64,000 bases of DNA from the NCBI GenBank assembly GCA_012845835.1, contig JABAKD010000026.1:9675699-9739698 (forward strand), given 5' to 3'. This document shows, piece by piece, positions 2,826 through 34,565 of the stretch. The DNA comes from Undaria pinnatifida (lineage: Eukaryota; Sar; Phaeophyceae; Laminariales; Alariaceae). Numbering within the stretch: the stretch's first letter is position 1; the number at the start of each line of letters is the position of its first letter. The notes under the pieces were generated by a model. It searched no databases. It worked only from the letters and a program-made list of their open reading frames with translations, and had not been told where the DNA came from. The translations under genes were made by a program, and so were the position numbers.

Positions 2826-2827
2826 CA

Positions 2828-5218: not shown

Positions 5219-5261
5219 ACATATATATAATATTCATATATATCAAATCATTCCTTGGTGT

Positions 5262-5800: not shown

Positions 5801-5813
5801 GTAACAGAATTTC

Positions 5814-8428: not shown

Positions 8429-8510
8429 TCAACCATCGTAATATCATACAATATGGGGGAGGGAATGTAATCTCTATGCAAAGATCCTGTTTTGTTTTAA
8501 TCAATTGTCA

Positions 8511-8640
8511 GCGGTGGCCTAGTGGTTTTACCCTCGAATACTGCCAACGTTTGATTGTCCTTGAGTTCGACACCCACCACGATGAAATTTGACTTTATTT
8601 GCAAAAATGCAATCAAGAAAAGAGATCAACTGCTGAGAGC
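8511..8640 (+). repeat. tRNA-related SINE-like sequence, copy 1
   Basis: An A-box-like TGGCCTAGTGG (8,515-8,525) and a B-box-like GAGTTCGACAC (8,563-8,573) are spaced as in a Pol III internal promoter, and an A-rich tail follows. The D-arm phrase resembles Glu/Asp-type tRNAs. The stems do not pair well enough for a working tRNA gene. The copy at 33,543 lies in the same flanking sequence, so this insertion predates the segmental duplication. Confidence 0.55.
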
Positions 8641-9535
8641 GCCTGCTAGGTACAATTCGACGCGAGTCGACGAGGGAAGAAAATGCTGGATTCTCCTCGC
8701 GGTAAAAATGAAGGCACGTGCCGAAGTGAGGAGGGAGGAGGAGGGCCCGCTATGTGACCCCGGATCTGAGTTACTACTGGGAGGGAGCGCGAGAATGGTG
8801 CGGGGATGATAAATGGGATGAAGAAAAAAAATGTTGCAAAGAAAGGCATATGATTATTTCTACCAGTAAATAATATGTCAGTCTCTAGGTAATACGCACG
8901 GCACCATCAGCAGTCGTCATGGTAGAGACACTCCGGATATTTTGTATTGAGGGGACGCGTCCGATTTCGACAACGTGAAAGCACCCACGAAGCAAAGATA
9001 GCAGACACACATATCCCGCCTTCTCGAGAAAAAACAGAGAAGAAGCGCTACGCCAACCTCTCGTACGAGCAAAGCCACCACCGCACCAATCGTAGACAAC
9101 GCCGACGCAATGAGAGATCGCCCTCCTCTTCTTCGTTTTCCTCCTCGCCCGCAACCACGCAGACCAATCAATGCGACAGCCTTCACGTAACAAACAAAAC
9201 GGTCTTCTTCCAAAACCTCGCCGGCTGACATGGCCCCATGTCAACGTTTGATGCAAACCGACTTTGCATCCTGTCGACCTCGAACCTCCATTGCCACGGG
9301 GACAGCAGTGCAGTCTCTTCATTAATGCCAAGGTCTCTTTCGTTTCGCCTAGAGGCGACGCAGGTTCTCAATAATACTCTTTTCGGTGTTTTTGTTTGAT
9401 AGACGCCAACTTTTACTTGATGGCGCATTCAACATAGTGTGTTTCGCCTATCTATCCTTGCCTTCTTTGTTGTACTCCGGAGTATAATATTTCGTGTTTT
9501 TTCTGTCAAATCATGACTTTCATAATCCCATGTTT
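8622..9535 (+). repeat. Module F, copy 1
   Basis: It is collinear with 33,672-34,560. It contains GACGAGGGAAGAAAATGC, GGAGGGCCCGCTATGTGAC and a stretch rich in Arg/Ser codons on either strand (about 8,940-9,230). The minus-strand frame of 148 codons at 8,885-9,331 corresponds only partly to a 128-codon frame in the other copy, with frame changes. I therefore treat it as non-coding repeat sequence or a very old gene relic. Confidence 0.65.
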
Positions 9536-9672
9536 GTATTAATCTCTTGGCATTACTTTAAAGTTCAATGCATGCCAAATCGGACAGCTACGCCTTAAGT
9601 TGTCGAAGTGCTGCCCTACCCGAAGCATGGGCACCGGCGGCGGATGCCGGCGCCCATGCGGAGCCCTTGTTT
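9535..9672 (+). repeat. Hairpin-ended module, copy 2
   Basis: It starts near AATCTCTTGGCATTACTTTA and contains TCGAAGTGCTGCCCTACCCG. It ends with an inverted repeat at 9,629-9,655 (GGGCACCGGC and GCCGGCGCCC, one mismatch), then ATGCGGAGCCCTTG. Similarity between copies stops just after CTTG. Confidence 0.75.
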
Positions 9673-10600
9673 AAATCAAAATACATTCCAGCTGTGAGAT
9701 GGAATATTTTGTCGAAACTCATCTTTGCAAGCTGTGTGTGATACTCCGATCGCGCGTATTACGGGTTGTGTGTCCTCATTAAAGAATATAGGTCGGCGAC
9801 TCCCCTTACAACCACAGTGTAGCTATCAGGGTCAACAAGGTGATGTTAGGCAGTCTGTGCGCGGAAACTATATAACCCGTTTCTGAGGGGGACAAAATCT
9901 GACCGCTGTGGAAGGAAAAGCATCAGTTTATCAAGTGAATCCTGTAGGTCGACTAACCGGTGAGGGGAGGGCGGAGTTTTTAAGGACGTGGGGGGCTGGT
10001 TTTAATCAAAAGGGGAGCGGGAGGGGGGGAGGGGGGGGAGAGGACGGGTGAGGCAGGTCAACTTGTGCGTGGAAACTATAAACCTTCCTTGTGGGGGAGG
10101 GGGGGGGGAATGTGCCGGGGGGGGCGGGGGGCAGGGGGGGTTATGTCGCATAGATGTAGGGGTTTGCTATACGCGTGGTGCTAGGTCTAAGCGATGGTGC
10201 GGGTGGTGGGCAAGGAGGGAGCGTTGGGGGCGGGGGTGGGTGGGAATCGCAGTAGCGGCATGGACGGCTCTAAAACGATAACGAGGCGATATCTAGGGCG
10301 TGGAAGTGTCTATTAACCGGGCGGATTTCGATATTAGGTGGGGCGTTTAAGCTAGAGAAAGCGAGGAAAAAAACAAAAAGGGGGGGACGGGGGGGGGAGG
10401 GTTTTCAAGAGGTTTAGGTCACATATAATGCTAAAATACACTCCAGCTATGAGATCAAGGATTTGGTCGACACTGATCTTCGCAACATTGTGTGTGATCC
10501 TCCAATCGCGTGTATTAATCATATATATATATGCAGGGGCTTGCTATACGCGCGGTGCTGGGTAAATATATGTATATGGTCATTGTTATTTTTTGGAGTC
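9672..10600 (+). repeat. Composite G-rich repeat, copy 2
   Basis: It has the same order as copy 1: the CACTCCAGCTGTGAGAT module at about 9,680-9,890, then a G-rich stretch with many G runs (about 9,960-10,400), then a partial second CACTCCAGCT segment near 10,438. It sits directly after a hairpin-ended module, as does copy 3 at 34,690. Confidence 0.7.
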
Positions 10601-10604
10601 GATC

Positions 10605-10795
10605 AGGAGTTTTTTTCGTCTCGGCCTCACTATGAGATCTGGGAACTGGAATTCTCGGTCTAATCGCTTCGTTCGAGCGCCGTCTTCAGGGGGCAGCTCA
10701 AACGCCCCTCGCGCTGCCGTATCCGTTCTGTACCTGGCCAATATCGGGCACGTGGTTTGGGTGAGACAAGCGGGAAGTGCGCAAAGTTTTGTAGT
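10605..10795 (+). repeat. GGTCAGGAG hairpin repeat, copy 3
   Basis: A nearly full member of the family, starting just before AGGAGTTTTTTTCGTCTCGG. The central hairpin is partly degraded (TTCAGGGGGC instead of TTCGGGGGGC). Confidence 0.7.
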
Positions 10796-10839
10796 TTGGG
10801 CAGTATACGCCCGACCTATTCTAGGATCTTGGTATATGC

Positions 10840-11669
10840 AGAGCTTGAACAAAAGAACATATGGGAAAACATTTATTTACAAGTTGGCGTCATTTCCAAA
10901 TTGGCTCATATTATGTTTCCACAGCACTTTTTTCATGGTCACACCTCGAAGCGTTTGACCTTATTTCGTACGACTGCTGTTTCGTTGCTTTTCGGTATCG
11001 GATTTCACGGATAAATACCTTTGTTCCAACGCTCGTTTTGTTCGAGGCGGGGCGTTCCCTACCCAACGACATCATTACGGTGTCCCTGCCGATTCTTCAT
11101 CCTGCGTCATGGACTGTCAGACAGAGTAAACCAAACAATCGCAACTAATCAAGGTATAAAGCAAGTGAAGTGCTAGCGTACCGGGTACGAAAACACGACA
11201 AAACAGGCCAGACCACAGAAATAGAAAATAAACACAACGAACAGAGTCGCTTTTAAAATCGCAGTACGAGAAACAATGTGTTGTCAGTCCTTTTCATCTC
11301 CGCTCCAAAAAGTGGTTCCGTGTATATTGGTCCACGATCCACGATCCATCTTTCAGGACCCCATAATAAATATCGCACACTAATTTCATGCATATTTATC
11401 CGCACAAACGAAACGTGGATGCACTTCGAAAGGTACGTGTGATTCTGAAAGTAGTAGTGTTTTAAACGCTTTGTTGTGTGGTTGCAAGAACTGCGCTGGC
11501 TACTGACTGTTGTTGTTGCTGGTCAATACATCGTATGCGCTAGCAATTCATTGATGACAGTATAAAAAAAAGCATAGGGATCTTCTTGAAAATGAACGTC
11601 ATCTCTTGTTCGCCAGGAATTCACCGATGATACAGAGTAATAGGGGTCTCCTTGACAATATGTGCTGTG
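10840..11669 (+). repeat. Module G, copy 1 (target of the LTR element)
   Basis: It is collinear with 27,560-28,590. Shared landmarks are GTTGGCGTCATTTCCAAATTG, TTTTTCATGGTCACACC and TATTGGTCCACGATCCACGA. The copy is cut off at 11,669 by the left LTR of element 1 and resumes at 24,934. The site matching the 207-bp insertion in the other copy is intact here (TATATTGG at 11,323-11,330). Confidence 0.8.
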
Positions 11670-11943
11670 TGTTAAGATACGGCCTCGAAAGGCCTGTAGT
11701 TATCCGAATTTGAGATCATTTGAATGGGTTTCGTATGATAAGGTTGGTGTTTTATATTCGGGAAAGTTAGGAAGTAGATCGTAGCCACCTGCGAGGCTCC
11801 GATCTCAGAAGCTATCCCGGGCTCTGGTGGAAACGAATAAAGCTACATCTCTACGAAGGAAACGAAAGTGAGTACTCTCCGAGGACCTGCTCAATTGGCA
11901 GACCTGCAGGGGGCACTCTGTGTCCCCCCCCTTTAATTTAGCA
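11670..11943 (+). repeat. Element 1 left LTR
   Basis: It aligns along its length with 24,664-24,933. By eye there are about a dozen substitutions and one small indel around 11,780-11,795, so identity is roughly 95%. It starts TGTTAAGATACGG. The last bases are TTAGCA where the right LTR has TTAACA. A TATA-like TTTATATT lies near 11,750. Confidence 0.92.
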
Positions 11944-13479: not shown

Positions 13480-13645
13480 CATGTGCTGCCCCTCCACAAT
13501 GCTGCTAGGATAAATGCTGCAAAATGTTTTACAGGGTTCCACAACGCTGCTAGGATAAATGCTGCAAAAACTTTTACAGGGTTCCACGATGCTGCTAGGA
13601 TAAATGCTGCAATTTGTTTTTGCAGCTGTCACGACGGGTACTGTC
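13480..13645 (+). repeat. Three copies of a minisatellite of about 54-60 bp
   Basis: Each unit contains GCTGCTAGGATAAATGCTGC followed by a TTTTACAGGGTTCCAC-like segment. Units begin near 13,500, 13,550 and 13,590. Confidence 0.8.
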
Positions 13646-14059
13646 AGTTGCAATGCGGTTTTCAGTTGGCGGAGATGCTGAGCAGTATACTACTGCAGGC
13701 GCAAACGCTGCCTTTCTGCTGCTGTTGGTACATGTGCTACCCTTCACGATAAATGCTAGGGTCTACGCTGGGATTTTTTTCTTCTTCTCTGCACATGTTC
13801 GGACAGCTACTGCCCGTTACAGAGCGCTTGAAACAAAGTTCGCGGAGATACTGCGCTTCACAGCTTTTAATAGTGCAGTGGAGATCAGCCCGTTTGATGC
13901 GGTACCTTTGGGGGCAAACAGCCTTTCTATTCGACTGTGGGCGTACACATCTTTTCTACAGCTGGTGTTGGGACTACACTACCCATCTTGGTGCGGTTGA
14001 AATTGCCGTTACCTGTTAACACAGCAGTAATACTGCAGCAATCAGCACTACTGTACGCG

Positions 14060-14460
14060 CGACCGTCCCCCTTTAGTGCGGTCGGGAGGAACTACCTTGT
14101 TCGGGGGGTTATGCTGCCCGTTTTTTATACGGTTGGTGCGCGAACCTTTACTGTCCTACCCCCCCCTACACTACTGTGGGGACAGATGCTGCCCGTTTTA
14201 TTTTATATACGGTTGGTGCGCGATCCTCTACAGTCCTACCCCCTCCTACACTACTGTTGGGGCGGATGCTGCCCGTTTTTTATATGGTGGTGCGCGATCT
14301 TTCAGCGTGCTACCCCCCCCCCCCCCTACACTGCCGTTGGTGCAGATGCTGCCCTTTTTTTACGGTTGGCTGCGCGATCCTTTACTGTTTTACCACCCCC
14401 CCCTAAACTACTGTTGGGGCAGATGCTGCCCGTTTTTTTTTATACGGTTGGGGGGGCGAA
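14060..14460 (+). repeat. Minisatellite array of about 75 bp units
   Basis: About six imperfect units share GATGCTGCCCGTTTTTTAT, ACGGTTGGTGCGCGA, and a C-run followed by TACACTACTGT. C-run length varies between units. The array grades into the next one, whose unit is related (GCTGCC, GTGCGAT, CTACCCCC and CTACACTG). Confidence 0.85.
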
Positions 14461-15010
14461 CCATTATTGTGCTTCCCCCTACACTGCACCTAGGGTAAAT
14501 GCTACCTGTTTTGGTGCGATGAGTGTCGGCGTGTTGGGCGACCCTTCACTGTGCTACCCCCCTACACTGTGCATGGGGTAAACGCTGCCTGTTTTGGTGC
14601 GATGAGTGTCGGCGTGTTGGGTGACCTTTCACTGTGCTACCCCCCTACACTACACCTAGCTTAAATGCTGTCAGGTTTGGTGCGACGAGTGTCGGCGTGT
14701 TGGGCGACCGTTCACTGTGCTTCCACCCCTACACTACACCTAGGTTGAATGCTGCCTGTTTTGGTGCGATGAGTGTCGGCGTGTTGGGCGACCCTTCACT
14801 GTGCTACCCCCTACGCTACATCTAGGTTAAATGCTGCCTGGTTTGGTACAATGAGCGTCGGCGTATTGGGCGAACCTTTATTGTGCTACCCCCTACACTG
14901 CACCTAGGTCAAATGCTGCCTGTTTTAGTGCGATGAGCGTGGGCTTCTTGTGCAACCCTTTACTGTGTGATGCCCCGTACACTGCACCCAGGTTAATTGC
15001 TGCCCGTTTT
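14460..15010 (+). repeat. Minisatellite array of about 84 bp units
   Basis: Six to seven imperfect units share TAAATGCTGCCTG, TTTTGGTGCGATGAGTGTCG, GCGTGTTGGGCGAC and CACTGTGCTACCCCC. More diverged units run on to about 15,130. Open frames through this array are periodic and reflect the repeat, not a gene. Confidence 0.9.
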
Positions 15011-15462
15011 TGTGCGATGGGCGTGGGCGGTTTGGGCGACGCTGATGACTGTTTAAGTGCGATGGCTGCAGACGTACCTATACTGTTTTGCACCCCCTGC
15101 ACTGCGTTTAGGGTCAGTGCTGCCCATTTTTGTCTGCTTTTACTGCGGTTCGTGCGGGCGTTACCCGTATACCCTACGGTCAGACTGGGCGCTGCTCTTA
15201 TGTTGCGGTTTTGGTGGATGGTACCCTTCTTATTGCTGTACTCCTTTTATGCGGCTAGCTGGCGTGGCTGCTACCATCACTGATGCTGAACGGAGTCGAG
15301 GCCCATGTCTTGCTGTTAGCTGAAACACAGATATACCGCTACTTACAGCAGAGACACCACAACCGATATCTTCTTCCATAGCTTCTTTACGCGTCGTTCC
15401 CACCCCGCCACCTTCCCCCACACCCCCTCCTTCCGCTGTCCTTGATACAGACAACACGCAAC

Positions 15463-17220: not shown

Positions 17221-17930
17221 GTGCCGCCCCAGTCGCTTTCGTGGCAGAAGGTATCGAGCCATCATTCAACTGTCACGCCCATCGATGATTCATCTGACCC
17301 TTGGCTTGACCACACATGGAACTGCTGGTCACTACAAGAGCATCATTATGCAGAAGTTTGTGATGTTAAGGCCTCGTTTAAGACAGACGACCCTCATCTT
17401 TGGAGGGGCCTCCTTTCACCTCGCGCTAATGCCCTCCGAGAAAACCGGGGGCTTTGCCTCAACTGTCACGAAGACAACCATTCCATCAAGCATTGTAGGC
17501 ATCCTTTCATTAGTACGAGTGGCTGCTTGAACACTGCGCTTGGCCAATTTGGCGACGATGACGCTCACCGACGTTGACACACACGCATGGTCTGCTACGG
17601 CCGAGACGACAAATCTTCTCGCCCGAACGACCACATGAAAAATCGACGCCATCTTTCAGGACCAGGACCAGGTAAACTGTCACAACGATACCACATACAC
17701 GTCGGATCACCATGGTGGTATCCTGCGCTCGCCCGCCTCTTTTGCCCCCGCTCCTGCTCCTCGAATGCGTTTTGGGGCCGCCAACAACCCGGGCGAAAAT
17801 ACACTCGCGCGCCAACCTGGCACATTCCGTACCGGAAATCGATAGCTCGACGGCGGTACGGCACCGTCGACAACACTGTCGGGGGGTACCTATTTTGGTT
17901 TCAGAAGATGCTCGTGTTCTGTTGCTAGCC
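17221..17930 (+). pseudogene. gag: Element 1 gag, zinc-knuckle and C-terminal part
   Basis: The frame at 17,221-17,577 contains a textbook retroviral-type zinc knuckle, C-X2-C-X4-H-X4-C (CLNCHEDNHSIKHC, nt 17,455-17,496). It is preceded by a frame with many His and Trp residues. Nucleocapsid knuckles bind the element's RNA. The frame stops at 17,577 and carries on in phase to about 17,926 with basic residues. An overlapping frame gives a Pro/Ala-rich tail (about 17,715-17,850). The longer plus-strand frame that overlaps the knuckle (16,739-17,530) is out of phase there, so a frameshift lies between about 17,105 and 17,330. Confidence 0.75.
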
Positions 17931-18920
17931 TGTCCAGTAACGCAGCACAGATTGCCTCTGTCAAGAGCCCACGGGCTCCTACGCGTCTGCGGACGATTCT
18001 CACGGCGTAGTACCGGCGGCGGGAACTAGCGCCTTAAGCGTAGTTTCCTGCAGCCAGGTAATTTTTGTATTTTCTTTCTTTCTTTTTTCGACGGTGAGAA
18101 CGCGCGCTTTCAGCGACGTTCCCCTCGGTCATGGTCTGAGTTCGGCAACGGGAACCTCGCTTCCGGCGCCTTTTCCCTCAGCCGCGGCATAAACTCAGCA
18201 TTGGGGGTACGCGCTCCAAACGCCGCCCCCATCAACCATGGCACGGGAGCCTGCGCTTTGCGCGCTCCCCCCCCAGGCACGCGCCGCGCAACAATATAGC
18301 TGCGGCGACGGCGCGTTGCCTTTTTACGCGTGTGTGTTTATCCCCCCCTCTCCCTGACCAGGCGGTGGCGGTCTGTTTGAGGTGTGGGACGGTCGACCCT
18401 CGAAACACTTTATCTGACCACGAGGTGGCGGTCGATTTGAGGTTTGGGAACGCCAACACTAGAACACCGAGATCGTTTGCGAGGCTCGATCCGGTGTTTG
18501 CTCGCGATAATAGCGGGCGCTCTGTCCTGTTTTCCATCAAGGAGGAGTCGACAAGATTAGCTACCTCGTCTCCTTTCTCCAAGAGACATAACGGAGAAGA
18601 GCCTCCTCGGGTAAAAATATTATTTCCTTGCCCGAGCACCGCTCCCGAAGGCGCCCAGAGGGTTTACGAACCCTGCTTCGATTTTAACACGCTAACCCAC
18701 GTGGTTCAGGCTACGTCTGCCCCAGTGGCACAGGAAGAAGATCCGACACTGCGCGACGAGCCAGTGGTGACTCCACGGCCTCCAGCCTGATCAGCTGGAC
18801 GCTATTCCCGTAATTTTACGGAAGAATCGCGCCTCTCGTCAGGCAGAAACAGCTCAGAGCCCCAGCCCCTTCGGGCGCAGTTAGAGCAGTTTTCTTGCGA
18901 TTATAAGCCAAAAAGCAAAG
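17930..18920 (+). other. Element 1 gag-pol linker, unassigned
   Basis: A 152-codon open frame at 18,332-18,790 shows no domain I recognise. It includes a short internal duplication: two segments sharing GAC(C/A)-rich text and GGTGGCGGTC at about 18,361 and 18,424. No RT or protease motif was found here in any frame. Confidence 0.4.
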
Positions 18921-18924
18921 CGGC

Positions 18925-19450
18925 CACGCCGCGAGAAACCGTGGGTTCGGACTCGCGTCGTGCTCCCGAGGGCTGGTGTTCCTGAGGGGGACACTAAGGG
19001 CCCAACAAGCCGATGACTGGTGTTCCCAGACGGGGACATTGCGGACCCAAATGCCCAACGAGGCTACCGACGGGTTGGCACCGTCGGTGTTGGACTATTT
19101 TTCGGGTGCAATGAGGGCGGCTTCTTACGAGTTTCCGCCAGCGAGTGAGCAGGACCCGAGGCGAGAAACCCCAGGTTCGGACTCGCATGTTACTCCCGAG
19201 GCCTAGCGCTCCCACAAGGGAACATTGCAGGCCCAAATCGCCGAGGACTGGTGTTCCCAGAAGGGGACATTGCAGACCCACAAATGTCCAACGATTTTTC
19301 GGGCGCAGTAGAGCGTATTCTCGCGCTTTTCCGCCGACGAGCGAAGAGAGACCCGAGGCGAGATACCACGGGTTCGGATTCGCGTCGTGCTCCCGAGGCC
19401 TGGTATTCCTGGACGGGGACATTGCAGGTCCAAATTTCGACGCGACTTTT
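18925..19450 (+). repeat. Three imperfect tandem units (200-230 bp) before the NADAR domain
   Basis: Units start near 18,925, 19,153 and 19,352 with GGCGAGAAACC- or GGCGAGATACC-like text. They share GGTTCGGACTCGC, CTCCCGAGGCC and GACGGGGACATTGCAG. They probably encode a repetitive spacer in the polyprotein. Frames change between units. Confidence 0.75.
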
Positions 19451-19480
19451 GACCCTTCTCTCGAATACTCCACAGCCAAA

Positions 19481-19955
19481 GTGGTGTTATTCTGGCAGCC
19501 CCCATCCTAGTTTCCAACGTCGTCCCGTTCATCGTTTGCCGTGGACGACGTGCCATATTATTGCGAGGAGCAGTACATGATGGCCGAAAAGACCACGTTT
19601 TTGCAAGACCATCGAGCAGTGGGGCTCATCATGTCGTCGCCTAGTCCAAGCACACGCAAACGCATCGGTCGAGGCGTGGGCAACTTTGACTCCGCTGTTG
19701 GGAACAGGGAGAAGCAAAACGTCGTGTTATCTGGCACCTACGACAAATTCACGCAGAATCCAGCCAAAAAAAAAAAATGAACTTTTGACCTCTGACAACA
19801 AGCTTCTGGCTTAATTCAGTCCTCTGGACACAGTGTGGGGCATTGGTCTCCGGGCTGATGGTCCCAGGGCCAACACCCCATGCCAGGGAAGAGGAAAAAC
19901 TTGCTCGGTGAGGCACTTTCTGCCGTTCGCGAAGCTATTCGCGACAATGAGACCG
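19481..19955 (+). pseudogene. NADAR (YbiA-like) domain inside the element 1 polyprotein (broken)
   Basis: Read across three breaks, the plus strand gives a NADAR-type domain. Visible pieces, in order: VVLFWQPPS; after an in-frame TAG at 19,508, VDDVPYYCEEQYMMAEK and TTFLQDH; then KRIGRGVGNFDSAV; VVLSGTYDKFTQNPA; a poly-A frameshift near 19,767-19,778; then a stop at about 19,813; SPLDTVWGIGLRADGPRAN; a frameshift near 19,885; and KNLLGEALSAVREAIRDN. These match the family's conserved E-x-Y with a following K and F-x-D/H, the KF-x-QNP segment, W-G-x-G and N-x-LG. NADAR proteins act on NAD/ADP-ribose-related or riboflavin-intermediate N-glycosidic bonds, and some reverse guanine ADP-ribosylation. 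What it does in a retroelement is unknown. It is in the same orientation as gag and integrase and lies between them. Confidence 0.82.
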
Positions 19956-20235
19956 GGTCGGCGCACCCGGCCTCCCCTAGTCGGTTCCGCACCTGCACTG
20001 CGAATGCAAGAACAAAAAAATCTCGTCCGCGCCGCAACCGGGCCGTTAACAGCGGCCAGCGCTCGCAAAACTTCCCCTTCGGCGTTTCCGACCTATTTCT
20101 CGGGCGCGTTGGCCAATAAAATGAAGTGGAGTTTTGGAGATAGCTTCTAGCGTCGGCCCTGACCTTAAGCAGTCAGAACACGGCCCCTGTTTCATCAAGG
20201 GTACTGTGACGCTGGACGACGTTTCGTTCACTATG

Positions 20236-20560
20236 AAAAACGCGTATATCTGTCGAGCAACGCTCGACTCGGAGAGGCACTGGACTCCTATCTAGATTTG
20301 GGGACCGGCAGCATTGTTGGGGCTACTAAACACCTCCGAGGGTGCTGTGGAGAACAAATTTCCGCATATCCTCCGGCCGCAAGAAACAGGAGAGCACTGG
20401 CAAAGTGGGGACCCTCAATGCACGAGTACAGCGGTAGCTTGAGTTCGTCACCGCGTTCGATAAATGCACGAGTCCAGCGGTAGCTTGAGTTCATCACCGC
20501 GTTCGATTGCACACTCGAGTACCGCAAAGGCAGCGCCAACGGCATCGCCGATTTTTCTAG
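20236..20560 (+). pseudogene. Element 1 RNase H, distal half
   Basis: Recognisable pieces across frame changes are AYICRATLDSERHWTP (the usual position of the aromatic/ERNY-like segment), GSIVGATKHLRG, GKVGTLNARVQR and LEFITAFDCTLEYRKGSANG. The last is the classic end of Ty3/gypsy RNase H just before the linker to integrase. The catalytic D of the first half (the DAS segment) and the whole RT are not found upstream. A 46-bp tandem duplication (starts at 20,418 and 20,464) breaks the frame, and a TAG replaces the expected Trp just before LEFITAFD. Confidence 0.75.
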
Positions 20561-20724
20561 CCCGTTTTCCAGATCCTGTTACGGAGTACGACCGCAGTGG
20601 CTTGACAAACTTCAACCCCGTGGGGTTGCCAAGCCCCAACCCCGTTGGAGAAAGCGGTATCTACCACCTACGGACCGCGGGCTGCGCGATCCCTCTTCGT
20701 CGATCCCAGGGGCCGGTTTGGGTG

Positions 20725-20885
20725 GACTCGCGCCCTCGCCGAAAACACTGTCTTAGGTGAGTTCGTGCCCACACCGAAAGCACAGCTTTGGGTGGACTCG
20801 AACCCCTCGCCGAAAGCACCATCTTGGGTGGGCTCGTGCCCCGCATTGAACCTGTTGCCTTGGGTGGGCTCCCTCTCACCTCTAC
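20725..20885 (+). repeat. Short TTGGGTGGACTCG repeats in the pol linker
   Basis: Four to five units of about 37-55 bp contain TTGGGTGG(A/G)CTCG followed by CC-rich text and CGCCGAAA(G/A)CACC. They lie between RNase H and the integrase frame and probably code for a flexible linker. A similar motif array is seen at 58,815-59,260. Confidence 0.7.
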
Positions 20886-20926
20886 CGCGTTTCACGATTT
20901 TCGCACACACGAGCAACGTATAAGGT

Positions 20927-22804
20927 TTGTCGGCCTTTCTGCTTCCCCGGGGAGAATCGTCGCTCGTGCTCCTGCCTCCGTCGCCACTACCGAAATCTGT
21001 ACCGGCCGCGGGTCGATTTCACCTGCCGCCGACACCTTTTTCGCTTCGGTTTTGGCCATACCCATCGAGGGCGGCACCGGCTCCGCAGAAGCCCTGGCTG
21101 CAGCGAAGCCCATCGCACAGCCGATTTATCTCTTCCGGAGTTCTTTACAGGAGACGGCCCCCGCCGCGACCACCCGTTCGACTGTGTCCGTCTCCACCAT
21201 GCTTGGCACTCCAGCCCTTCCGTCGTCGACGACACGCCGACGAACAGCGACAACAACAGGTAATGCATCCCCGCTGTAGATTATGGATTCGAGCTCGGCG
21301 AAGCCCCTCGGCCATCTTCCAGACGAGGTACAACCCCGTCGCGAGTCCGACGGCCGCGGCTAACCCCGTCGACCACCGCGACCCCTGCTCTTGCCGACTC
21401 GCCGGTCCGCACGGTGCCACTACCGTCCGACTGCGACCACGCAGAGTCAGTGTGGGAACTTCTCTCTTACGGCTCATGCCTTCTCCTGGTGACACGCCGA
21501 CTGCATATACAGGGTCGGACACCCTCGGCAACGCTGATGAATTGCGGTTCACTGATTCTGTCGCGCGTTATTCACATGACGATTGGAAGCGAGAGCAGCA
21601 CGCTGAGCCGACGTGCCACGCCATGATGCGTTACGTTTCTACCGGCCGGCCATCGGTCCTGCCGCCCGACGTTTTGGCGTGCTACCTCTCGCACAAGCGT
21701 CCATCCCTCTCAGACCTCAACGAACTGGCGGGTAAGGGTCGACTACATACAACCGACGACGACATCGTTCTACTTGTCCGTAACCCGACACTGCCGCCAA
21801 CAAGGTCTGACAAACCCAACTCTGCGGGGCGAGTTGCTTGCCCGCTGAACGACGAGCCAGCTCGCATCTACGTTCCCCTGCTCATGCGCCCTTGGATCAT
21901 GCAAGCTTGTCACTTGACGGCCTCTTGTCACCTTGGCACCACGCGCACGTTGCGCATGCTGGAGCGCTTTTATTGGTGGATTGGCATGAGTGTGTGCACC
22001 CGGTGGTGGCTTCGCCACTGCTTGAAGTGCCAGGCGCGGAAAACCCCACGGCTGACTGTTGGCTGGCCCATCATCACAATGCCTCTGCCGGAAGGTCCAG
22101 GTATCGCGGTCAGTGTTGACTACTTCGGCCGCCTTCCGGTCACACCACGAGGCAACACCTACATCCTGGTGTTCACTGATCGCTTCAGTCGTCGGGCTGA
22201 CATGTTCCCCGTCACTGCCGCTGAGTTCACCGCGGAGGGTACAGCCAATATCCTGGTGAACCAATGCATCTCCTTGTGGGGGTGCCCGCGCACCATACCC
22301 TCGGACAACGGACAGCAGTTTTGTTCCAAGCTTTCACAAGCTGTATATCAGCTATTGGGTGTACACAAGCTTGCTACAAGCTGCTATCATCCCAACTGTA
22401 ACGGGGGCGTTGAGCGGGTAAATCACACTATGGCCCAAATGCTGGCTATGTTCGTCAACGAGCGACAAGACGATTGGGACTTGCATCTGCCCCACGTAGA
22501 ATTCGATTACAACAACTCTGTCAGCGCGGCGATGGGTTCGGCGCCCAACGAGGTCCACATGGGCAGACTCCCACGGCTCCCCCTGACGATTTTCGACGGC
22601 ACAGGTGTCGTGGGACACCAGAGTTTGACCCGTGACCACCTGGCCTATTGCGATTTGTCCACCTACCGGCAAAAGCGCGCGAACGACATTGTCCGCGCAC
22701 ACCACGCCCTCACCGTTTCCCGTGTTACCCGCACAAACTCCGCCCTCGCCGACGCGCTACGTCCAGCACCTAACTTCACTGTGGGTGGTTGGGCATGGGT
22801 ATAG
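20927..22804 (+). CDS. Ty3/gypsy integrase of element 1 (625-codon open frame)
   Basis: This is the longest open frame in the window. Residues 1-170 are a Pro/Ser/Arg-rich linker. A zinc-binding H-X5-H-X29-C-X2-C motif follows (H329, H335, C365, C368; pieces HLTASCH and CLKC). The catalytic core then has D398 (SVDYFG), D460 (PSDNGQQF) and E496 (GGVERVNHT). The D460-E496 spacing is 35, as in retroviral-type integrases. Integrase inserts the cDNA into the host genome. The listed start is only the first ATG of the open frame; in the live element this would be part of a gag-pol polyprotein. The frame ends at a TAG (22,802) right after GGWAWV, but the same phase stays meaningful to about 23,735, so the stop is a mutation. 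Confidence 0.93.
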   Translation: MSAFLLPRGESSLVLLPPSPLPKSVPAAGRFHLPPTPFSLRFWPYPSRAAPAPQKPWLQRSPSHSRFISSGVLYRRRPPPRPPVRLCPSPPCLALQPFRRRRHADEQRQQQVMHPRCRLWIRARRSPSAIFQTRYNPVASPTAAANPVDHRDPCSCRLAGPHGATTVRLRPRRVSVGTSLLRLMPSPGDTPTAYTGSDTLGNADELRFTDSVARYSHDDWKREQHAEPTCHAMMRYVSTGRPSVLPPDVLACYLSHKRPSLSDLNELAGKGRLHTTDDDIVLLVRNPTLPPTRSDKPNSAGRVACPLNDEPARIYVPLLMRPWIMQACHLTASCHLGTTRTLRMLERFYWWIGMSVCTRWWLRHCLKCQARKTPRLTVGWPIITMPLPEGPGIAVSVDYFGRLPVTPRGNTYILVFTDRFSRRADMFPVTAAEFTAEGTANILVNQCISLWGCPRTIPSDNGQQFCSKLSQAVYQLLGVHKLATSCYHPNCNGGVERVNHTMAQMLAMFVNERQDDWDLHLPHVEFDYNNSVSAAMGSAPNEVHMGRLPRLPLTIFDGTGVVGHQSLTRDHLAYCDLSTYRQKRANDIVRAHHALTVSRVTRTNSALADALRPAPNFTVGGWAWV

Positions 22805-23340
22805 AATTCTGCCTCTACCATCCGCCTGGGTTTGAAGGCGAACACCGACGCCAATGTTCTCAAGGCCAAACTCGCGCTTAACTGGACGGGCCCATACAAG
22901 GTTCTGGCCGTCGGCCCCTGCTCCGCCGCCGAGACCCCGGACGGCTCGCCGCTCGGGAGCAACCTCCATTATTTCGATCTCCCTTCCGACTTGCCTGGTT
23001 CAAACGCTCGTCAGCGTGTGGCCTTCGAGCGCTGCAAACCGTGTGCCAACCGCCACGACAGCGGAGACATGCCCAAACACCTACCGGCGGGGCTGACACA
23101 GTATGTCCTCATCAAATTTTCCAAGAAGTCCCCGCAGTACCACGTCACTCAAGACGAAGTTTCGACTCCCCTCCAACGGCTGGAGGTGGAGCAGATCACT
23201 GGTCACCAGTCGGTACGGGGGCGAGGTGGCGTCATCGCGGTGCTATACAAAGCGCATTAGGCGGGACTCTCCGAACCCTCCTGGGAGTGGGAAATGCACC
23301 TTTACCTCTCCCGCTCCAACATCTTGCGTTATTGGGCCGG
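22805..23340 (+). pseudogene. Element 1 integrase C-terminal region and chromodomain
   Basis: In phase with the integrase after one stop, the sequence holds the GPY/F-type segment (LNWTGPYKVLAVGPC, about 22,880-22,920). It then has a chromodomain at about 23,171-23,340: LEVEQITGHQ, GVIAVLYKAH, a stop at 23,258 where an aromatic residue is expected, PSWEWEM and ILRYWAG. This matches the chromodomain pattern of a beta-strand start, then W-E, then a closing helix. In chromoviruses this domain steers integration to modified histones. Confidence 0.75.
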
Positions 23341-23735
23341 AACCCCGGACCAGCACCGCCAAACCAACCGCCTCTACCGCCGAATGCGGATCGGGGCGGC
23401 ACAGCGCGAGCTCTGCCGTAACAACGGGGAACGTTTCCTAGCGCCGGGCTATGCCTGTGTTCCCCGCGCCGATTGGCTCCGTCGCTAACACGACACAGTA
23501 CTCCCTAAGGTAGCCCACTTTTATTACAAGGGAAAGGATGGGTTATGGTGGCTTGGAAAAAACAGCGCGAGCACTACAGAGGACAAGGTATATCTGGTCC
23601 GCTTTCTGGACGACCCGGGACCGATTAAACTTCCTCTTCCCCCGCGCGCTACACGACTTTATTAGGAGCCGTACGAGGTTCTTGGTGCTTGCAAGTTCAC
23701 ATCGCCAGTGTGTTTCCTCGGGGAATCCAACTTAA
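23341..23735 (+). pseudogene. Element 1 post-chromodomain module (YRR-GER-GY linker plus SH3/Tudor-like piece)
   Basis: The phase continues through NRLYRRMRIGAAQREL, NNGERFLAPGYACV, a TAA at 23,486, then KDGLWWLGKNSASTTED and VYLVRFLDDPGPIKLPL, with stops at about 23,663 and 23,733. The second part has the W-x-LG / FLDD-P look of a small SH3- or Tudor-like beta barrel. The same order of motifs is seen after the chromodomain of element 2 (48,115-48,405), so it is a conserved part of the lineage. Its function is unknown; chromatin reading is a reasonable inference. Confidence 0.6.
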
Positions 23736-24663: not shown

Positions 24664-24933
24664 TGTTAAGATACGGCCTCGAAAGGCCTGTAATTATCCG
24701 AATTTAAGATCATTTGGATGGGTTTCGTATGATAATGTTGGTGTTTTATATTCGGGAAAGTTAGGAAGTAGATCGGAAGCACGTGGCTCCGATCTCAGAA
24801 GCTATCCCGGGCTCTGGTGGAAACGAATATAGCTACATCTCTACGAAGGAAACGAAAGTGAGTACTCTCCGAGGACCTGCTCAATTGGCAGATCTGCAGG
24901 GGGCACTCTGTGTTCCCCACCTTTAATTTAACA
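24664..24933 (+). repeat. Element 1 right LTR
   Basis: It begins TGTTAAGATACGG and ends TTTAATTTAACA, giving perfect TGTTAA/TTAACA termini. The sequence immediately after it is the right half of the interrupted target (CGTGTGTGCGCCACAG). Confidence 0.92.
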
Positions 24934-25560
24934 CGTGTGTGCGCCACAGCGATCGACGATATAGCAGTATCATAAAAAATTAGGATCTTCTGCACAAATA
25001 TCTCGTGGTACCTATTACTACGCATACGCACGTCAGACGCAAGTCAATTGGAAAAAAGCAATAAAAAAAAGAAAAGACAGAGAAGAAAGAAAAGGGGTAT
25101 TATATTCCGATTCAAGATCACCCTGTGTCAAGTGGAAGCAGGCGCTGATTGCCCTTATCTGTTGCGGGCAATGTATATGGCTGTTAGTACCTGGTATGCC
25201 GGGACATGGCTCTTTGGCCGCTCTTTTAACGTGACGGTCTGGGCACCAACAGTTTTAACTTCATGGATTCATCCCGAGGTCAAACGATCTGTACGAATGG
25301 CCGTCCAATGGCATCGCCTGCCCTACGCGAGTAGTATGAAAAAAAATTCCGTGAAAATTTTAGCGAGCTAAGGTTTCTGATCCAATAACCGAATGAAATC
25401 GAGACTTTTAGCGATTTTGTTCGCTGCCGGATAAGCGACCAAGAGGTGATTATTCGGGCAGAAAATATTCTATGATTATTCGACCATTATGCCATTGAGT
25501 CAAATACGCACTGTTTTGGGTTATTATGCTCGAGTCGAGCCAGTCTTAGTTCCACATATT
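24934..25560 (+). repeat. Right flank of the target plus repeat module A, copy 2
   Basis: 24,934-25,000 continues the target sequence interrupted at 11,669 (matching 28,589-28,640). 25,000-25,085 matches 29,325-29,415. From about 25,090 module A follows, aligned with 3,090 and 29,420. Confidence 0.75.
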
Positions 25561-27130
25561 ATGATGTCGTTTTTATTTGAACACCCTGTTTTTGTTCGAA
25601 ATTAAGTGTGCTTGTAATAGGGGGGCCATGAATCCTGGATGCAAATGGCTTTAATTCATCCCTTTATGTTGCGTTTCGTGCTGTTGTTGTTGTTCAAGCA
25701 AGTGTTTCCGATCGTCATTTTGAGCGTGCTTGGTCGGCACGCCAACCTGAGGTAGGCTTAAAATCGGTATTTTGTGCGATCTATCATGCAAATAACTCAT
25801 TAAACTGCGCTCGCTTTGCGAATGTATGCCATATGCGAGAAGTGTGCGAGAAAAACCGATTCCGTAGAGAAAACTATGGCTTTATTGTGTCGAAGCCTAC
25901 CAGCCAGTCACGAGAAATAAACCAATGGAGCCGGGGTTGACACGTCGTGCGGCGAGGTATCGACCCGGGAGATCATCGTTATAGCTCCCGCGTTGTTGGA
26001 GCTGTAGAGATTCGGAGGATTTATGAAACGGGGACGGGGCCCTATTTCCCCCGTGTGTGACGGAACTGCCCCCCATCGGTTGGTGAGCCTCCATCATCCT
26101 CTTAGGGTGAGGGGCCGCTGTGGAGCTTGAACCAATCAGCGATTCTAGCCAATGGAACTGGGGTTTCCACACCGTGGGGGGCGATGTCGACCCGAGAGAA
26201 CTTGTTTTTTTCTCTTGTTTGTCTAATGTTTAGATACATGGAATAAGCCCTGGACCGGGGGTGGGACCCTATCGTCCCCGGGTGGAGCTGGCTCTATAAT
26301 ATACGGACCCCAGCGAACCAGATCATCCGGTCGATGGCATTGGGGATTTCCACACTGTGCGTGGAGGCATCAATTCTGGTGATATACCCGTGTTCGTTCT
26401 CGGGCTGTCGGAGTTGTATATATGTGAATGGATTATGATTCTGGGAATGAACCCTATCGTCCCCAGATGACGATTACTTTATGTACGATCTCCGGCGAAT
26501 GAGCGACCAGCAATCAGAATAAAAGGCCATACCAGGTATATTCGTTAATATTTTCGTCTAAAACTCCATCTAGCCTGCAATTTTAACTAACAAATTCTTA
26601 GTTCTTCAGTGCTATCGCGTACTCCTAATATTCCATCGACCGGACAAGAGCGGTCTACAGCAACAAGGTAGTATCATTATTACACTAGTATTCGAGGAAT
26701 TGAATGGCGAAGGCAGCGACACCGTGTTGCACGCCTAGAACACCGCCAGCAAGTCTCTTTACAATCACTATACACACACAGAATCACAGTCGGTCTGCGA
26801 GCCTCTGGTCTAGATATGATGGTATCATGCATGTAGCAGCAGAAGCTGGCTCAGTGCGCGCCTGTCAGTGGCTACGTAGAGAACATGCAGCAAACAGTTG
26901 GCCCTCTCTATGCTGGCCCTGGATGCTTAGTTGAGTCGAAACGTCAAGAAACGCGCTCGAGACGTATCTTCGTGGCCAGACTAGAGTGTCAGTCTGCGTG
27001 TGCTCGGGTTTATCTGGGATTCATCCAATCGTAATATATATGATGAAGCTCAGAATCGTATTCACGCAAGAAACGGAGAAACGGAGGAAACGACAGAAGT
27101 AAGTAGTCGACTGTTTGTCTGTCTTTATCA
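25560..27130 (+). repeat. Repeat module B, copy 2
   Basis: This is collinear with copies 1 and 3 and closest to copy 3 (38,430-40,085). The two share long stretches such as the segment around GAACCAATCAGCGATTCT and the ankyrin-like ORF. Confidence 0.8.
26704..26934 (+). CDS. Small ankyrin-like ORF in module B, copy 2
   Basis: This 76-codon frame starts ATGGCGAAGGC and ends in a stop without a frameshift. Residues 40-62 (IMHVAAEAGSVRACQWLRRE) resemble one ankyrin unit of the form seen in repeat-rich protist proteins (HVAAxxGxxxxCQWL). The part before it has no known motif. The same frame is open at 39,680-39,910 (with GTG instead of ATG) and is broken at 4,757. A single unit cannot form an ankyrin stack, so this is either an exon-like fragment captured by the repeat or a relic. 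Confidence 0.45.
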   Translation: MAKAATPCCTPRTPPASLFTITIHTQNHSRSASLWSRYDGIMHVAAEAGSVRACQWLRREHAANSWPSLCWPWMLS

Positions 27131-27278
27131 ATCTCTTGGCATTACTTTGCGTTCTACACGCGTAGGCTATGTGTTGTGTGGTAACGGTTTATACTCTCTA
27201 TCGAGTATTGAATCGAACAAGTCGAAGTGCTGCCCTGCCCTACCCGGAGCATGGCACCCATTCGGAGCCCTTGCATAT
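27130..27278 (+). repeat. Hairpin-ended module, copy 3 (palindrome lost)
   Basis: It contains AATCTCTTGGCATTACTTTG and TCGAAGTGCTGCCCTGCCC and ends CGGAGCCCTTG, but the central inverted repeat is deleted (GCATGGCACCCATTCGG remains). Confidence 0.65.
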
Positions 27279-27312
27279 ATATTTATCGATTTTTTTTCGT
27301 ACGGGACAGGGA

Positions 27313-27490
27313 TTTGGTCACGAGTTTTTGGGAGCAGTCTCGGTATTAGATTCTAGAAACTGGAATTCTCGCTTCGTTCGAGCGCCGTCTTCGGGGGGCG
27401 GCTCAAACGCCTCTCGCTCTTCTTCATCCGTTCCGCAACTGGCCGAGATCGGGTATGTGTGCAGATCGAGACAAGCGAGAAGTAAGCAAT
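27313..27490 (+). repeat. GGTCAGGAG hairpin repeat, copy 4 (5' diverged)
   Basis: The start is altered (GGTCACGAGTTTTTGGGAG). The central GCCGTCTTCGGGGGGCGGC hairpin and the CGAGACAAGCGAGAAGT end are kept. Confidence 0.7.
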
Positions 27491-27559
27491 TTTTTGTATT
27501 CTGGGCAGTATACGCCCGACCTATTCTAGGATCTTGGAAAATATGTAGAGTTTGAACGA

Positions 27560-28590
27560 AAAAAACACATGGGAAACCATTAATTCCAAGTTGGCGTCAT
27601 TTCCAAATTGACTTCCTGTTTCGTCCCGACAACACTTTTTTCATGGTCACACCGAGCTCGAAGCGTTTGGCCTATTGTCGTACGACTGCTGTGCCGTTAC
27701 TTTTCGATGTCGGATTTCGCGGATAAATACGTTTGTTCCAGCGTTCGTTGTCTTCGAGGGCGGCCGTTCCCTACCCAACGACATCATTACACCCAGTGTT
27801 CGTGCGGATCATTCACCCTAGAGAGGTACAACTTATTTTGCAGGCACAGACTGTCAGATAGAGTAAACCAAACATTCGCAATTGATTAAGCTTAAAAGCA
27901 AGTGAAATGCTAGCGTACCGGGTACGAGAACACAACAACACACGCCAGACCACAGAAATAGCAAATATACACACTGAACGGAGTCGCTTTGTAAAATCAC
28001 ATTTAAAATTACGAGAAACAATGTTTTGTCAGGCTTTTTCATCGCCGCCGCAAAGAGTCGTTTCGTATATATTGGGTTTTGCAGTTTCCGCGCACAGACT
28101 GACTAACATCACCCTGTTGACCCTGATAGCTACATTGTAGTTGTAATGGGAGTCACCGACCTAAATCCTTAATGAGGACACACAGCCCGTAATACGCACG
28201 ATCGGAGTATCACACACAGTATGCAAAGATGAGTTCGACAAAGTCTTCGATCTCACAGCGCGAGTGCATTTTCATGTTTTATTATATTGGTCCACGATCC
28301 ACGATCCATCTTTCAGGACCGCCCAATAAATATTCCACACTAATTCCATGTATATGTTACCCCACAAGCGAAACGTGGATGCACTTCTAAAGGTAGGTTT
28401 GTTTCTCATGGTAGTAGTTTTTTTTATCGCATTGATGTGTAGTTGCAAGAATTGTGCTGCCTACTGAATGTTGTGCGCCAGCAATTATTTAGTTTAGGGA
28501 TCTTCTTGAAAATAAATGTCATTTCGTGTTTGCCAGGGAATAACTGATGATACAAAGTAATAGGGATCTTCTGACCAATATGTGCTGTGT
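27560..28590 (+). repeat. Module G, copy 2 (uninterrupted target site)
   Basis: It aligns with 10,840-11,669 and carries a 207-bp insertion at 28,076-28,282. At about 28,585-28,605 it shows the LTR element's target uninterrupted (ATGTGCTGTGTGTGCGCC), which fixes the insertion point of element 1. Confidence 0.82.
28076..28282 (-). mobile_element. 207-bp insertion with 8-bp target duplication
   Basis: Module G copy 2 has extra sequence flanked by TATATTGG on both sides (28,068-28,075 and 28,283-28,290). The other copy has a single TATATTGG at 11,323-11,330. The insert is the inverted form of the sequence at 555-775 and 9,680-9,880. No terminal inverted repeats or A-tail are evident, so the class is unclear; a short nonautonomous element or solo terminal repeat is possible. 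Confidence 0.75.
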
Positions 28591-28599
28591 GTGCGCCAC

Positions 28600-29009
28600 A
28601 GCAATCGACGATAGAGCAGTATCATAAAAAAATGGGATCTTCTTCACCAGTACTTCATGTGCGCCAGTAATCGGCGATACAGCAGTAGGAGTGAAATAAT
28701 AGGTGTTACGGCGTGCTAGGCCTCCTACAACCACCGATGACCCTGGCATGTAGGCAGTGGGCAGCTCCTCTTCCCAGCCAACGAATCTTGGTGTATTCGT
28801 ACTTCTCGCGCAGTGCCTGATCACGCTCGGGTAGTTTGACCTGCGGTGTATAGCACCGCTGTCCTCCCTGCAGTACCGGTACTAGCATGTATGTATGTGT
28901 TTCTTGTGACGTGCGGTTCTCTTCGAGGTGCTCCTGTTATTTCAGGTTTGATACTAAACGACAACAGCTGTTCAGACAAGCTACACCAACTAGAAATTAC
29001 AGCAGCACC
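28600..29009. other. Unassigned sequence between modules
   Basis: The first part repeats GGGATCTTCTT phrases. A stretch at 28,640-29,010 is absent between the matching positions of the copy at 24,990. No coding signal is convincing. Confidence 0.4.
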
Positions 29010-29395
29010 GTGGAGCATTGTGGTTGTTCTCGCATTATTTAGTCGCAAAATCAAGAGTCTGTGGGCACGGAACAGGCTCCAGTCACATTCTGAAGTGGAC
29101 GAATACCCCGAGAAAAAACACAAACAAAACCAAAAGTGGTACACGCATATATTATAGCAGACGCAATTCATGCCTCTGCCAGGAAAATGTAAAAAATGAA
29201 ATCGAAATCGGGAGTCAGCCTACAATATGCCGGGTCCATACTGCTACATTCGTCGGACTACTCGCGCCTGAAAATACCGACTACACCGCTTGCTACCCAG
29301 AAAAAAAACTACCACGTATATATTACACGTGGTACCTATCACTACGAATACACACGTCAGACGCCAATCAAACGGAAAGAAACAAAAGAAGCGAA
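29010..29395 (-). repeat. Inverted copy of part of module E
   Basis: This reads as the reverse complement of 31,265-31,790 (without its MITE) and of 7,612-7,945. It forms an inverted repeat of about 380 bp with the 31.3 kb copy, separated by about 1.87 kb. The MITE site is empty here too (TA at 29,140-29,141 within AGTGGTACACGC). Confidence 0.75.
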
Positions 29396-29419
29396 ATACA
29401 AGGCAGAGAAGAAAGAAAA

Positions 29420-29790
29420 GGGGTTTTATATTACGATTCATGATCACCCTGTGTCGAGCCGAAGAAGGTGCTCATTGCTCTCATAGACCGTACATAGCTG
29501 TTAGTATGCCGGGACATGGCCATTTGACCGCTCTGCTTATGTCCCGAATGGCTTTATCTTGACTCTCTGGATACCAACTGCAAAGACTCATCCCAAGGTC
29601 GAGCGTTCAGTGTGAATTACGGTCGTACGGCAATTTTTAGCCTTACGCAAGAAGTATGCAAGAAAACCCGCGAAAATATTAGCGAGCTTAATTTAGGTTT
29701 TTGATCCAATAAGCCAATGAAATCGGTACTTTTAGCGGTTTTTTCCGGTGCCGGTTAAGCGACAAAGCGGTGATTATTTGGGCAGCGAAT
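29420..29790 (+). repeat. Repeat module A, copy 3
   Basis: It aligns with 3,110-3,480 and 25,110-25,480, starting near GATCACCCTGTGTCGAG. Confidence 0.7.
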
Positions 29791-29814
29791 AAAAAAATCT
29801 ATATAAAATCCTTC

Positions 29815-30395
29815 TTTGGTGTCAGGGGTTTGGTCAGGAGTTTTTTTTTGTCTCGGCCGAAGTATGCGATTCGCGGTACTGGAATTCTCGGTCGAATATT
29901 GCTTCGTTCGAGCGCCGCCTTCGGGGGGCGGTTTCAACGCCCCTCGCCCTGCCGCGTCCGTTTCGCACATCGACGTGAACGCGGACGGATGCAGAGCGAG
30001 ACAAGCGAGAAGTTGCAAAAATACCGCATGTCGAGGAGGAATTTTGAAAATTCTGGTTGAATCTTAATGTCTGCAACGCCTGGATAATTTACAAAATTGG
30101 CATCATTTCCAAACGGTACTTGATAATGTTTGGATTTTTGCGGTGGCATACTCTCGAGCGTTAGTTTCTTTGCTGTACATACAGTACTTTTTTTCTAGTT
30201 CGTTTGGTTCTTGCTCGGCCTTTATTGTTTTTGTTTCTACTCGTTTAGCCAGTTGGAAATTCAATTTTTTAGTGTGGGTTTACCTAAAACGTAACACAAA
30301 TTACGACGAAATCCAACTACTTCGTGACACAAATTTCCGACGGCAAGACGTTTCCTGACAAAATTATTCCCAAATCATGATATTTTCACGTAACA
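29815..30395 (+). repeat. Module C, copy 2 (with GGTCAGGAG hairpin repeat, copy 5)
   Basis: The hairpin repeat occupies 29,833-30,025, with the GCCGCCTTCGGGGGGCGG centre. The remainder is collinear with 5,475-5,800, including CTCGAGCGTTAGTTTCTTTG. Confidence 0.75.
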
Positions 30396-30396
30396 A

Positions 30397-30850
30397 AATC
30401 TCGGCACAACCAAGCAGGTAGAGCCGTCTCTTCGGCCTTTGGCCCTGGCTTTAGCACGGCCGCTGACACTCCAGGCAGCCTCTGCTGTAGGCATGAATAG
30501 TGCGGTTGATTCGCAGCGAACTATCCCGTTGTGCTCGTTTCTATGTGGCCATTGTCCATGCCATTTCGTGTCACCTTCCTTCTGTTTTGAGCTCGTCGTC
30601 GTACCGTTGAGGCACGAGGAAACGTACGTGCTGGGTGAGAACAGCAGTATGTACGACGCGCACGAACGCCAATTGACGACATTGGCAAACACACAACAGC
30701 AGGTGTAGCAGCAGTAGCCAAAGGGCGAACCTTCTAGCACATACTGCAGCAACTAGTAGCAACCAGAACCACAGCAGATAGCTCAAAGTGCAGTACAAGT
30801 GCCGTTGGCAACGTTAGGCGTACAGGCATCACTCTGTCCAATATATAACA
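30397..30850 (+). repeat. Single copy of the 463-bp unit
   Basis: It corresponds to one unit of the triple array at 5,814-7,195. It is flanked on both sides by the same modules, which makes it the reference state for judging the array's expansion. Confidence 0.85.
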
Positions 30851-33462: not shown

Positions 33463-34565
33463 TCAACCATCGAAATATCATACAGTATGGAGGAGGAAAT
33501 ATAATCTCTATGCAAAGATCCTGTTTTGTTTTAATCAATTATCAGCCCCGGTGGTCTAGTGGTTTTACCCTCGAATACTACTAACTTACGTTAAACGTTT
33601 GGTTGTCCTTGAGTTCGACACCCACTACGATGAGATTTTACTTTATTTGCAAAAATTCAAAAAAAAAAAAAATCAACTACTGACAGCGCCTAGCAGGGGT
33701 ACATTTCGACGCGAGTCGACGAGGGAAGAAAATGCTGGATCCTCCTCGCGGTAAAAATGAAGGCACGTGCCGAAGTGGGGAGGGAGGAGGAGGGCCCGCT
33801 ATGTGACCCCGGATCTGAGTTACTACTGAGAGGGAGCGCGGGAGTGGTGCGAGGATAATAAATGGGATAAAGAAAAAAAAATGTTGCAAAGGTATACTAT
33901 TGCTTCCAGTAAATAATATGTTAGTCTTTAGGAAATACGCACGGCATTATTAGTAGTCGTCATGGTGAAGGCACTCCGGATAGTATGTATTGAGGGGACG
34001 CGTCCGATTTCGACAACGTGAAAGGACCCACGAAGCAAAGACAGCAGACACACATATCCCGCCTTCCCGAGAAAAAACAGAGAAGAAGCGCTACGCCAAC
34101 CTCCCGTACGAGCACAGCCACCCCCGCACCTATCTTACTTAGACAACGCCGCCGCAACGAGAGATGGCCCTCCTCTTCTTCGTTTTCCTCCTCGCCCGCG
34201 ACCACGCAGACCAACCAATGCGACAGCCTCCACGTAACAAACAAAGCAATCTTCTTCCAAAACCTCGCCAACTGAAATGGCCCCATGTCGACGTTTGATG
34301 CAAACCTACGTTGCATCCTGTGTCGACTTCGAACCTCCATTGCCACGCGGACAGCAGTGCAGTCTCTTCATTAATGCCAAGGCCTCTTTCGTTTCGCCTA
34401 GGTGCGGCGAAGGTTTTCAGTACTCTTTTCGGTGTTTTTGTTTGATTGACGCCAACTTTTACTTGACGGCGCATTTAACAGTGTGTTCCGCCATCCGTGC
34501 ATTCTTTGTTGTATAATATTGCGTTTTTCTTCTGTCAAAGTATGACACAATCCCATGTTCGTATT
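33463..34565 (+). repeat. Module F, copy 2 (with SINE-like copy 2)
   Basis: This is collinear with 8,429-9,535. The SINE-like part has TGGTCTAGTGG (33,552-33,562) and GAGTTCGACAC (33,611-33,621) and ends in a run of A (33,660-33,671). It carries a short insertion between the boxes relative to copy 1. Confidence 0.7.

Follow-up and report, generated by a model that had tools for sequence, protein, structure and literature searches.

Evidence for a non-autonomous Ty3/gypsy retrotransposon copy carrying a broken YbiA-like NADAR domain in Undaria pinnatifida

Analysis of a stretch of 64,000 nucleotides of Undaria pinnatifida DNA (the window) revealed a pair of long terminal repeats (LTRs) on the forward strand, on which all parts of the element described below and its empty target site are also located. 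LTR comparison placed the 5' LTR (274 bp, TGTTAA...TAGCA) at 11670 to 11943 and the 3' LTR (270 bp, TGTTAA...TTAACA) at 24664 to 24933. The two LTRs differ by 13 mismatches over 270 aligned bases (K2P, 0.050). A TGG triplet positioned two bases past the end of the 5' LTR, to which no tRNA was matched, is the candidate start of a primer-binding site. The target duplication comprises 4 bp (TGTG/CGTG), three of which are identical, and its exact extent is slightly ambiguous because of the GT-rich target. A paralogous empty target site was found at 28582 to 28597, in an uninterrupted paralogue of the repeat that the element interrupts. The TG...CA-type LTR ends, the short target duplication, and the empty site identify the insertion as an LTR retrotransposon. 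Comparison of the window regions 542 to 11463 and 25004 to 40254 revealed many blocks with 74 to 90% similarity, often in the same order. Examples of block pairs are 5236 to 9763 with 29797 to 34771 and 25520 to 27254 with 38509 to 40216. These blocks are segmental repeats that host the retrotransposon insertion. A 465-bp unit is present in three tandem copies (94% matches) at 5802 to 7196, with one more copy at about 30391 to 30850.

Inside the element, minisatellite arrays with units of about 45, 80, and 83 bp occupy positions 13493 to 15040, between the 5' LTR and the gag-like region. The only gag landmark is a CCHC zinc-knuckle motif (CX2CX4HX4C) at 17455 to 17496, which was recognized by eye; profile searches of the ORFs and of the three forward frames revealed no Pfam match to gag or to a zinc knuckle in the element. 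Repeated linker units (18870 to 19435) are positioned upstream of a NADAR domain (19502 to 19942), which in turn lies upstream of an RNase H remnant and an integrase gene on the same strand. The RNase H remnant of pol, at approximately 20236 to 20352, was called through the colinear protein P0106, the window itself giving no direct Pfam match. The integrase ORF (20924 to 22804) contains an H2C2 zinc-binding region at about 21875 to 22045 and an rve core at about 22097 to 22390, and the Ty3 Gag-Pol polyprotein was the best of its nine PDB matches (E value, 6.8e-32). Across the three forward frames between the LTRs, protease and reverse transcriptase (RT) profiles gave no match at an E value of 1, a search that badly broken remnants could escape. 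The element was therefore classed as a non-autonomous derivative and not as a complete element. A chromodomain-like stretch near 23190 to 23360 was noticed by eye and had no match in Pfam or the PDB. Searching Rfam at gathering scores revealed no match within the window, and a search with bacterial settings revealed no tRNA genes in it. The original prediction had placed the NADAR domain well inside two LTRs, between gag and pol of a Ty3/gypsy retrotransposon. The precise LTR ends confirm the former; of the latter, the position upstream of a Ty3-like integrase holds, while protease and RT lack a profile match and gag is visible only as the CCHC motif found by eye.

Searching Pfam with hmmscan assigned the stop-free piece at 19511 to 19780 (forward strand) to the NADAR family (PF08719) with an E value of 6.3e-16 and 59.5 bits, compared to a curated cut-off of 35.1 bits. 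When stop codons were translated as X, one forward frame of the element interior matched NADAR with an E value of 2e-18 over profile positions 10 to 163 of 163, corresponding to 19502 to 19942 of the window. A second forward frame contributed a weak match to the middle of the domain (profile positions 105 to 146; E value, 0.041), so that both ends of the domain lie in one frame and the middle piece lies in another. This part of the window is a near-complete NADAR (YbiA-like) domain that is interrupted by in-frame stops and two opposite frame changes and is not encoded in a single open frame. With respect to the active-site Glu and Lys (E43 and K50 of the Phytophthora nicotianae NADAR), the window reads EQYMMAEK; at the position of E125, which is Glu and not Asp or His in the YbiA subfamily, it has a stop codon. 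The presence of a NADAR domain had been predicted from five peptides, with a profile search set in advance as the step that could refute it. The search returned a match above the cut-off, all five peptides were found in the right order across two forward frames, and the copy is broken as predicted.

Searching for relatives of the NADAR piece revealed 105 predicted proteins at an E value of 1e-3 or better, with query cover of 35 to 99% and identity of 60 to 88%. A search among longer proteins (about 440 to 1400 aa) gave two matches among 33 candidates, P0106 (579 aa) and P0107. None of 39 candidates of about 715 to 2275 aa contained NADAR, and no intact NADAR-Pol protein was seen among them. 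P0106 and the window align colinearly across 19577 to 21333, using three frames (77% over 65 aa, 52.5% over 240 aa, and 64% over 421 aa). As in the window, an RNase H-like stretch immediately follows its NADAR domain (RT_RNaseH; E value, 0.011, below the Pfam cut-off). P0107 is an apparently bacterial protein of 1261 aa in which PF10021, PF03747, PF08719 (NADAR), and PF01661 are present in one chain; going by their names, several of these domains presumably handle ADP-ribose.

Several relatives also share the sequences beside the domain. The tails of P0082, P0083, and P0093 match the window within 19937 to 20044, and the heads of P0027 and P0051 match it within 18994 to 19095 and 19412 to 19501; all five proteins belong to the second of the two clades described below. 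The head of P0011 matches the window linker, and linker units were found beside NADAR in P0011, P0027, P0051, and P0104. Because relatives match the flanks beside NADAR, the domain was inherited with its neighbors. These findings support inheritance of NADAR as a component of a retrotransposon lineage over its capture by chance. That a Ty3/gypsy lineage carries the domain had been proposed, with a lack of other copies named as the outcome that would refute it; the 105 related proteins and the flanks that several of them share agree with the proposal. In P0104, a linker resembling window positions 19280 to 19432 follows a NADAR start resembling 19577 to 19699, which suggests rearranged linker-NADAR units in some copies. 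The DNA of the relatives was searched for by one scan each of viral_contigs and genome_contigs, in which 26 and 176 stretches, respectively, matched the pattern and none was confirmed.

To compare residues, 107 rows consisting of 106 proteins and the window were divided by hand-chosen sequence markers into a clade of 71 rows that includes the window and a second clade of 36 rows. P0107 was left out of the counts, and P0106 was trimmed to its first 140 residues for the clade and residue counts. Both the grouping markers and the frame patterns used below were made by hand and picked after the sequences had been viewed. Residues are numbered as in the P. nicotianae NADAR (PMC11543638), the numbering being transferred through an alignment of P0083 with PDB entry 8bau at an offset of two. 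In the accessible text of PMC11543638, W89 is described as a pyrophosphate contact. Of the 69 rows of the window's clade that are readable at this position, 63 have Gly, 3 have Glu, 2 have Trp, and 1 has Arg; of the 36 rows of the second clade, 32 have Trp, 2 have Ser, 1 has Gly, and 1 has Leu. For the other residues compared, the readable rows that retain the residue in the window's clade and in the second clade, respectively, numbered 53 of 64 and 25 of 29 for K50, 67 of 70 and 36 of 36 for R79, 22 of 26 and 3 of 3 for E43, and 10 of 15 and 23 of 29 for E125. The second clade retains most of the active-site residues.

A tree was calculated from 88 of the 107 rows, namely those with no more than 8 gaps across 58 columns. 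It placed 27 rows (25 with Trp, 1 with Gly, and 1 in neither group) on one branch with support of 100/95, although its bootstrap was unsettled. The rest of the tree is largely without resolution, as expected from a burst, and 58 columns resolve little. The hand-made clade labels require two changes on this tree. In the window's clade, seven ADP-ribose-contact sites were less variable than 46 other sites (mean minority fraction, 0.080 versus 0.131; P = 0.0097); the corresponding values in the second clade were 0.048 versus 0.096 (P = 0.063). The lower variability in the window's clade could indicate some remaining constraint on the sequence; alternatively, it may result from inherited constraint or from hit selection. 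The ends of P0027, P0051, P0074, P0076, and P0086 look adapter-like, a pattern which we take to be translated sequencing adapters, and short-read assemblies are probably the source of some of the second-clade sequences.

Analysis of the reading frames revealed a recurrent change at a run of A residues. At this run, 33 of the 106 proteins leave their frame and enter the frame used by the window, with ends such as SPFEL (TFDL, a stop, and QQASG in the window), and 8 of the 106 shift into the third frame; P0012 was left unsorted. All proteins shifted at the A-run belong to the window's clade, in which a further 13 proteins cross the run in frame and 15 stop short of it or differ. The C-terminal end of the domain, located by pattern, is in frame with the protein in six cases and out of frame in nine, and it was found in frame by eye in P0082 and P0083. 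Near the A-run, separate frame changes were noticed by eye in a few second-clade proteins (P0061, P0073, and P0087). Runs of A are hotspots of slippage and mutation and a known source of sequencing error. For this reason, and because eight proteins shift into the third frame, the 33 changes need not represent one event; their common descent is likely.

We conclude, with fairly high confidence, that the element, 13.3 kb long, is a decayed and non-autonomous member of a Ty3/gypsy lineage in which a YbiA-like NADAR domain was acquired at the start of Pol. Since the Trp-to-Gly replacement, the frame change at the A-run, and the NADAR-RNase H junction are found in other copies as well, NADAR was probably already dead when the window copy was inserted. 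The suggestion that the domain looks recently functional was not upheld: W89 is replaced by Gly in 63 of 69 readable rows of the clade, the A-run change is present in 33 of 106 proteins, and P0106 likewise combines NADAR with RNase H and lacks protease and RT. According to the mechanism that we propose, autonomous relatives would produce an active NADAR as the first domain of Pol, and this domain would remove ADP-ribose from guanine, or cleave a related linkage, on the RNA, the cDNA, or a bound protein of the element. The derivative would have lost protease, RT, and a working NADAR and would have been copied in trans by the Pol of autonomous elements and spread, its NADAR sequence being a passenger. 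Autonomous elements could plausibly encode an active enzyme, since the second clade keeps most of the active-site residues and the domains in Ectocarpus elements are described as highly conserved. By analogy with characterized NADARs, hydrolysis of guanine-linked ADP-ribose is our best guess for its activity. This functional claim belongs to the relatives and not to the window copy. More speculatively, the NADAR of autonomous elements might de-ADP-ribosylate nucleic acid and so shield retrotransposon RNA or cDNA from a host defense based on guanine ADP-ribosylation, and the NADAR-dead, RT-less derivatives might parasitize both this protection and reverse transcription in trans; we regard this scenario as unlikely.

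Alternative explanations were weighed against the conclusion of a decayed derivative with a dead domain. The NADAR of the window's clade might still be used, with a Trp-less N-terminal piece as a non-hydrolyzing binder of ADP-ribose or nucleic acid and the A-run as a programmed frameshift. Such use would be consistent with the recurrence of the frame change at the same run (33 proteins into one frame and 8 into the other, of 106) and with the reduced variability of the contact sites. However, the shifted frames reach a stop within a few codons in most proteins, with the remaining domain in another frame, and 13 proteins of the clade cross the run in frame. The window copy also contains in-frame stops, and the element has no protease or RT match, which makes continued use improbable.

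An equally small probability is assigned to an explanation in which the second-clade relatives are mainly cellular genes, only the degraded clade is carried by retrotransposons, and intact NADAR domains are missing from the elements. The source contigs of 32 of the 36 second-clade proteins measure about 1.7 kb at most, no second-clade protein was seen together with an integrase, and there are five proteins in all with adapter-like ends, as a cellular origin would allow; against it, the ends of P0082, P0083, P0093, P0027, and P0051 match the flanks in the window. Least probable by far is a single capture of a host NADAR gene, whole or in part, by the window copy only. The presence of NADAR genes in many phages and plasmids would be consistent with such a capture, but the domain has 105 close relatives, several with the same upstream linker or downstream tail, and the accessible part of PMC12477816 describes a lineage with the domain at the same place. 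A one-off host gene insertion was rejected on account of the flanks common to independent copies.

The contrast between the clades is informative: one keeps most of the residues that hold ADP-ribose, and the other lost a key one yet spread. It offers a way to test what NADAR does in retrotransposition. Derivatives that move only alongside NADAR-competent relatives would suggest that the domain may act in trans, and movement in the absence of such relatives would mean that it is dispensable.

The accessible part of PMC12477816 describes one Gypsy lineage of Ectocarpus (e.g., Gypsy-12_Ec32) with NADAR at the N terminus of Pol and a chromodomain at the C terminus, after the integrase. The NADAR domains are described there as highly conserved, and the authors propose a role in processing of the RNA intermediate. 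By description, the only level at which they were compared, the Ectocarpus element and the window element are both Ty3/gypsy retrotransposons with a YbiA-family NADAR that is N-terminal in Pol and upstream of integrase. The window copy differs from the published element in that protease and RT are not detectable, NADAR is broken, and no chromodomain match was found. The NADAR-Gypsy architecture has thus already been published for Ectocarpus, and the element in the window is a true case of this known kind. RT-less, NADAR-dead derivatives are not mentioned in the accessible part of PMC12477816, and no title among the literature matches listed pointed to NADAR in retrotransposons beyond that study.

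The best PDB match of P0083 is the P. nicotianae NADAR (8bau; E value, 1.9e-11). We take 8bau to be this protein because the residue numbers in the accessible text of PMC11543638 fit its chain with an offset of two. P0083 retains the P. nicotianae residues K50, K75, G78, R79, V81, W89, E125, D130, and W133. Both clades mostly have F in place of Y84, S in place of D86, and K in place of R93; the window's clade, in addition, mostly has G in place of W89. According to the same source, and unlike the element-borne NADAR, the P. nicotianae protein is a stand-alone guanine-ADP-ribose hydrolase; the accessible parts of PMC11543638 and PMC11125620 report this hydrolysis as demonstrated for several NADARs. 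Escherichia coli YbiA (PDB entry 2b3w), a weak match of P0083 (E value, 0.016), belongs to the same superfamily but is a cellular, stand-alone protein and more distant than the P. nicotianae NADAR. The same domain is encoded by plasmids (36.7 to 50.9% identity among the ten listed of 67 matches) and phages (38.6 to 46.8% identity among the twenty listed of 130), in neither case in retrotransposons. In the phage records H1, H4, H5, H10, and H11, the NADAR proteins are annotated as GTP cyclohydrolase. A second retrotransposon setting is provided by the Tx1 elements of Crassostrea gigas, for which the accessible part of PMC12477816 describes a NADAR-like ORF1; these are LINEs and not LTR elements. 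To the NADAR-Gypsy architecture published for Ectocarpus, the present analysis adds the frame change at the A-run that recurs in 33 of 106 proteins, the lack of protease and RT matches together with the NADAR-RNase H junction that P0106 shares, and the contrast between a clade mostly with Trp and a clade mostly with Gly at the position of W89.
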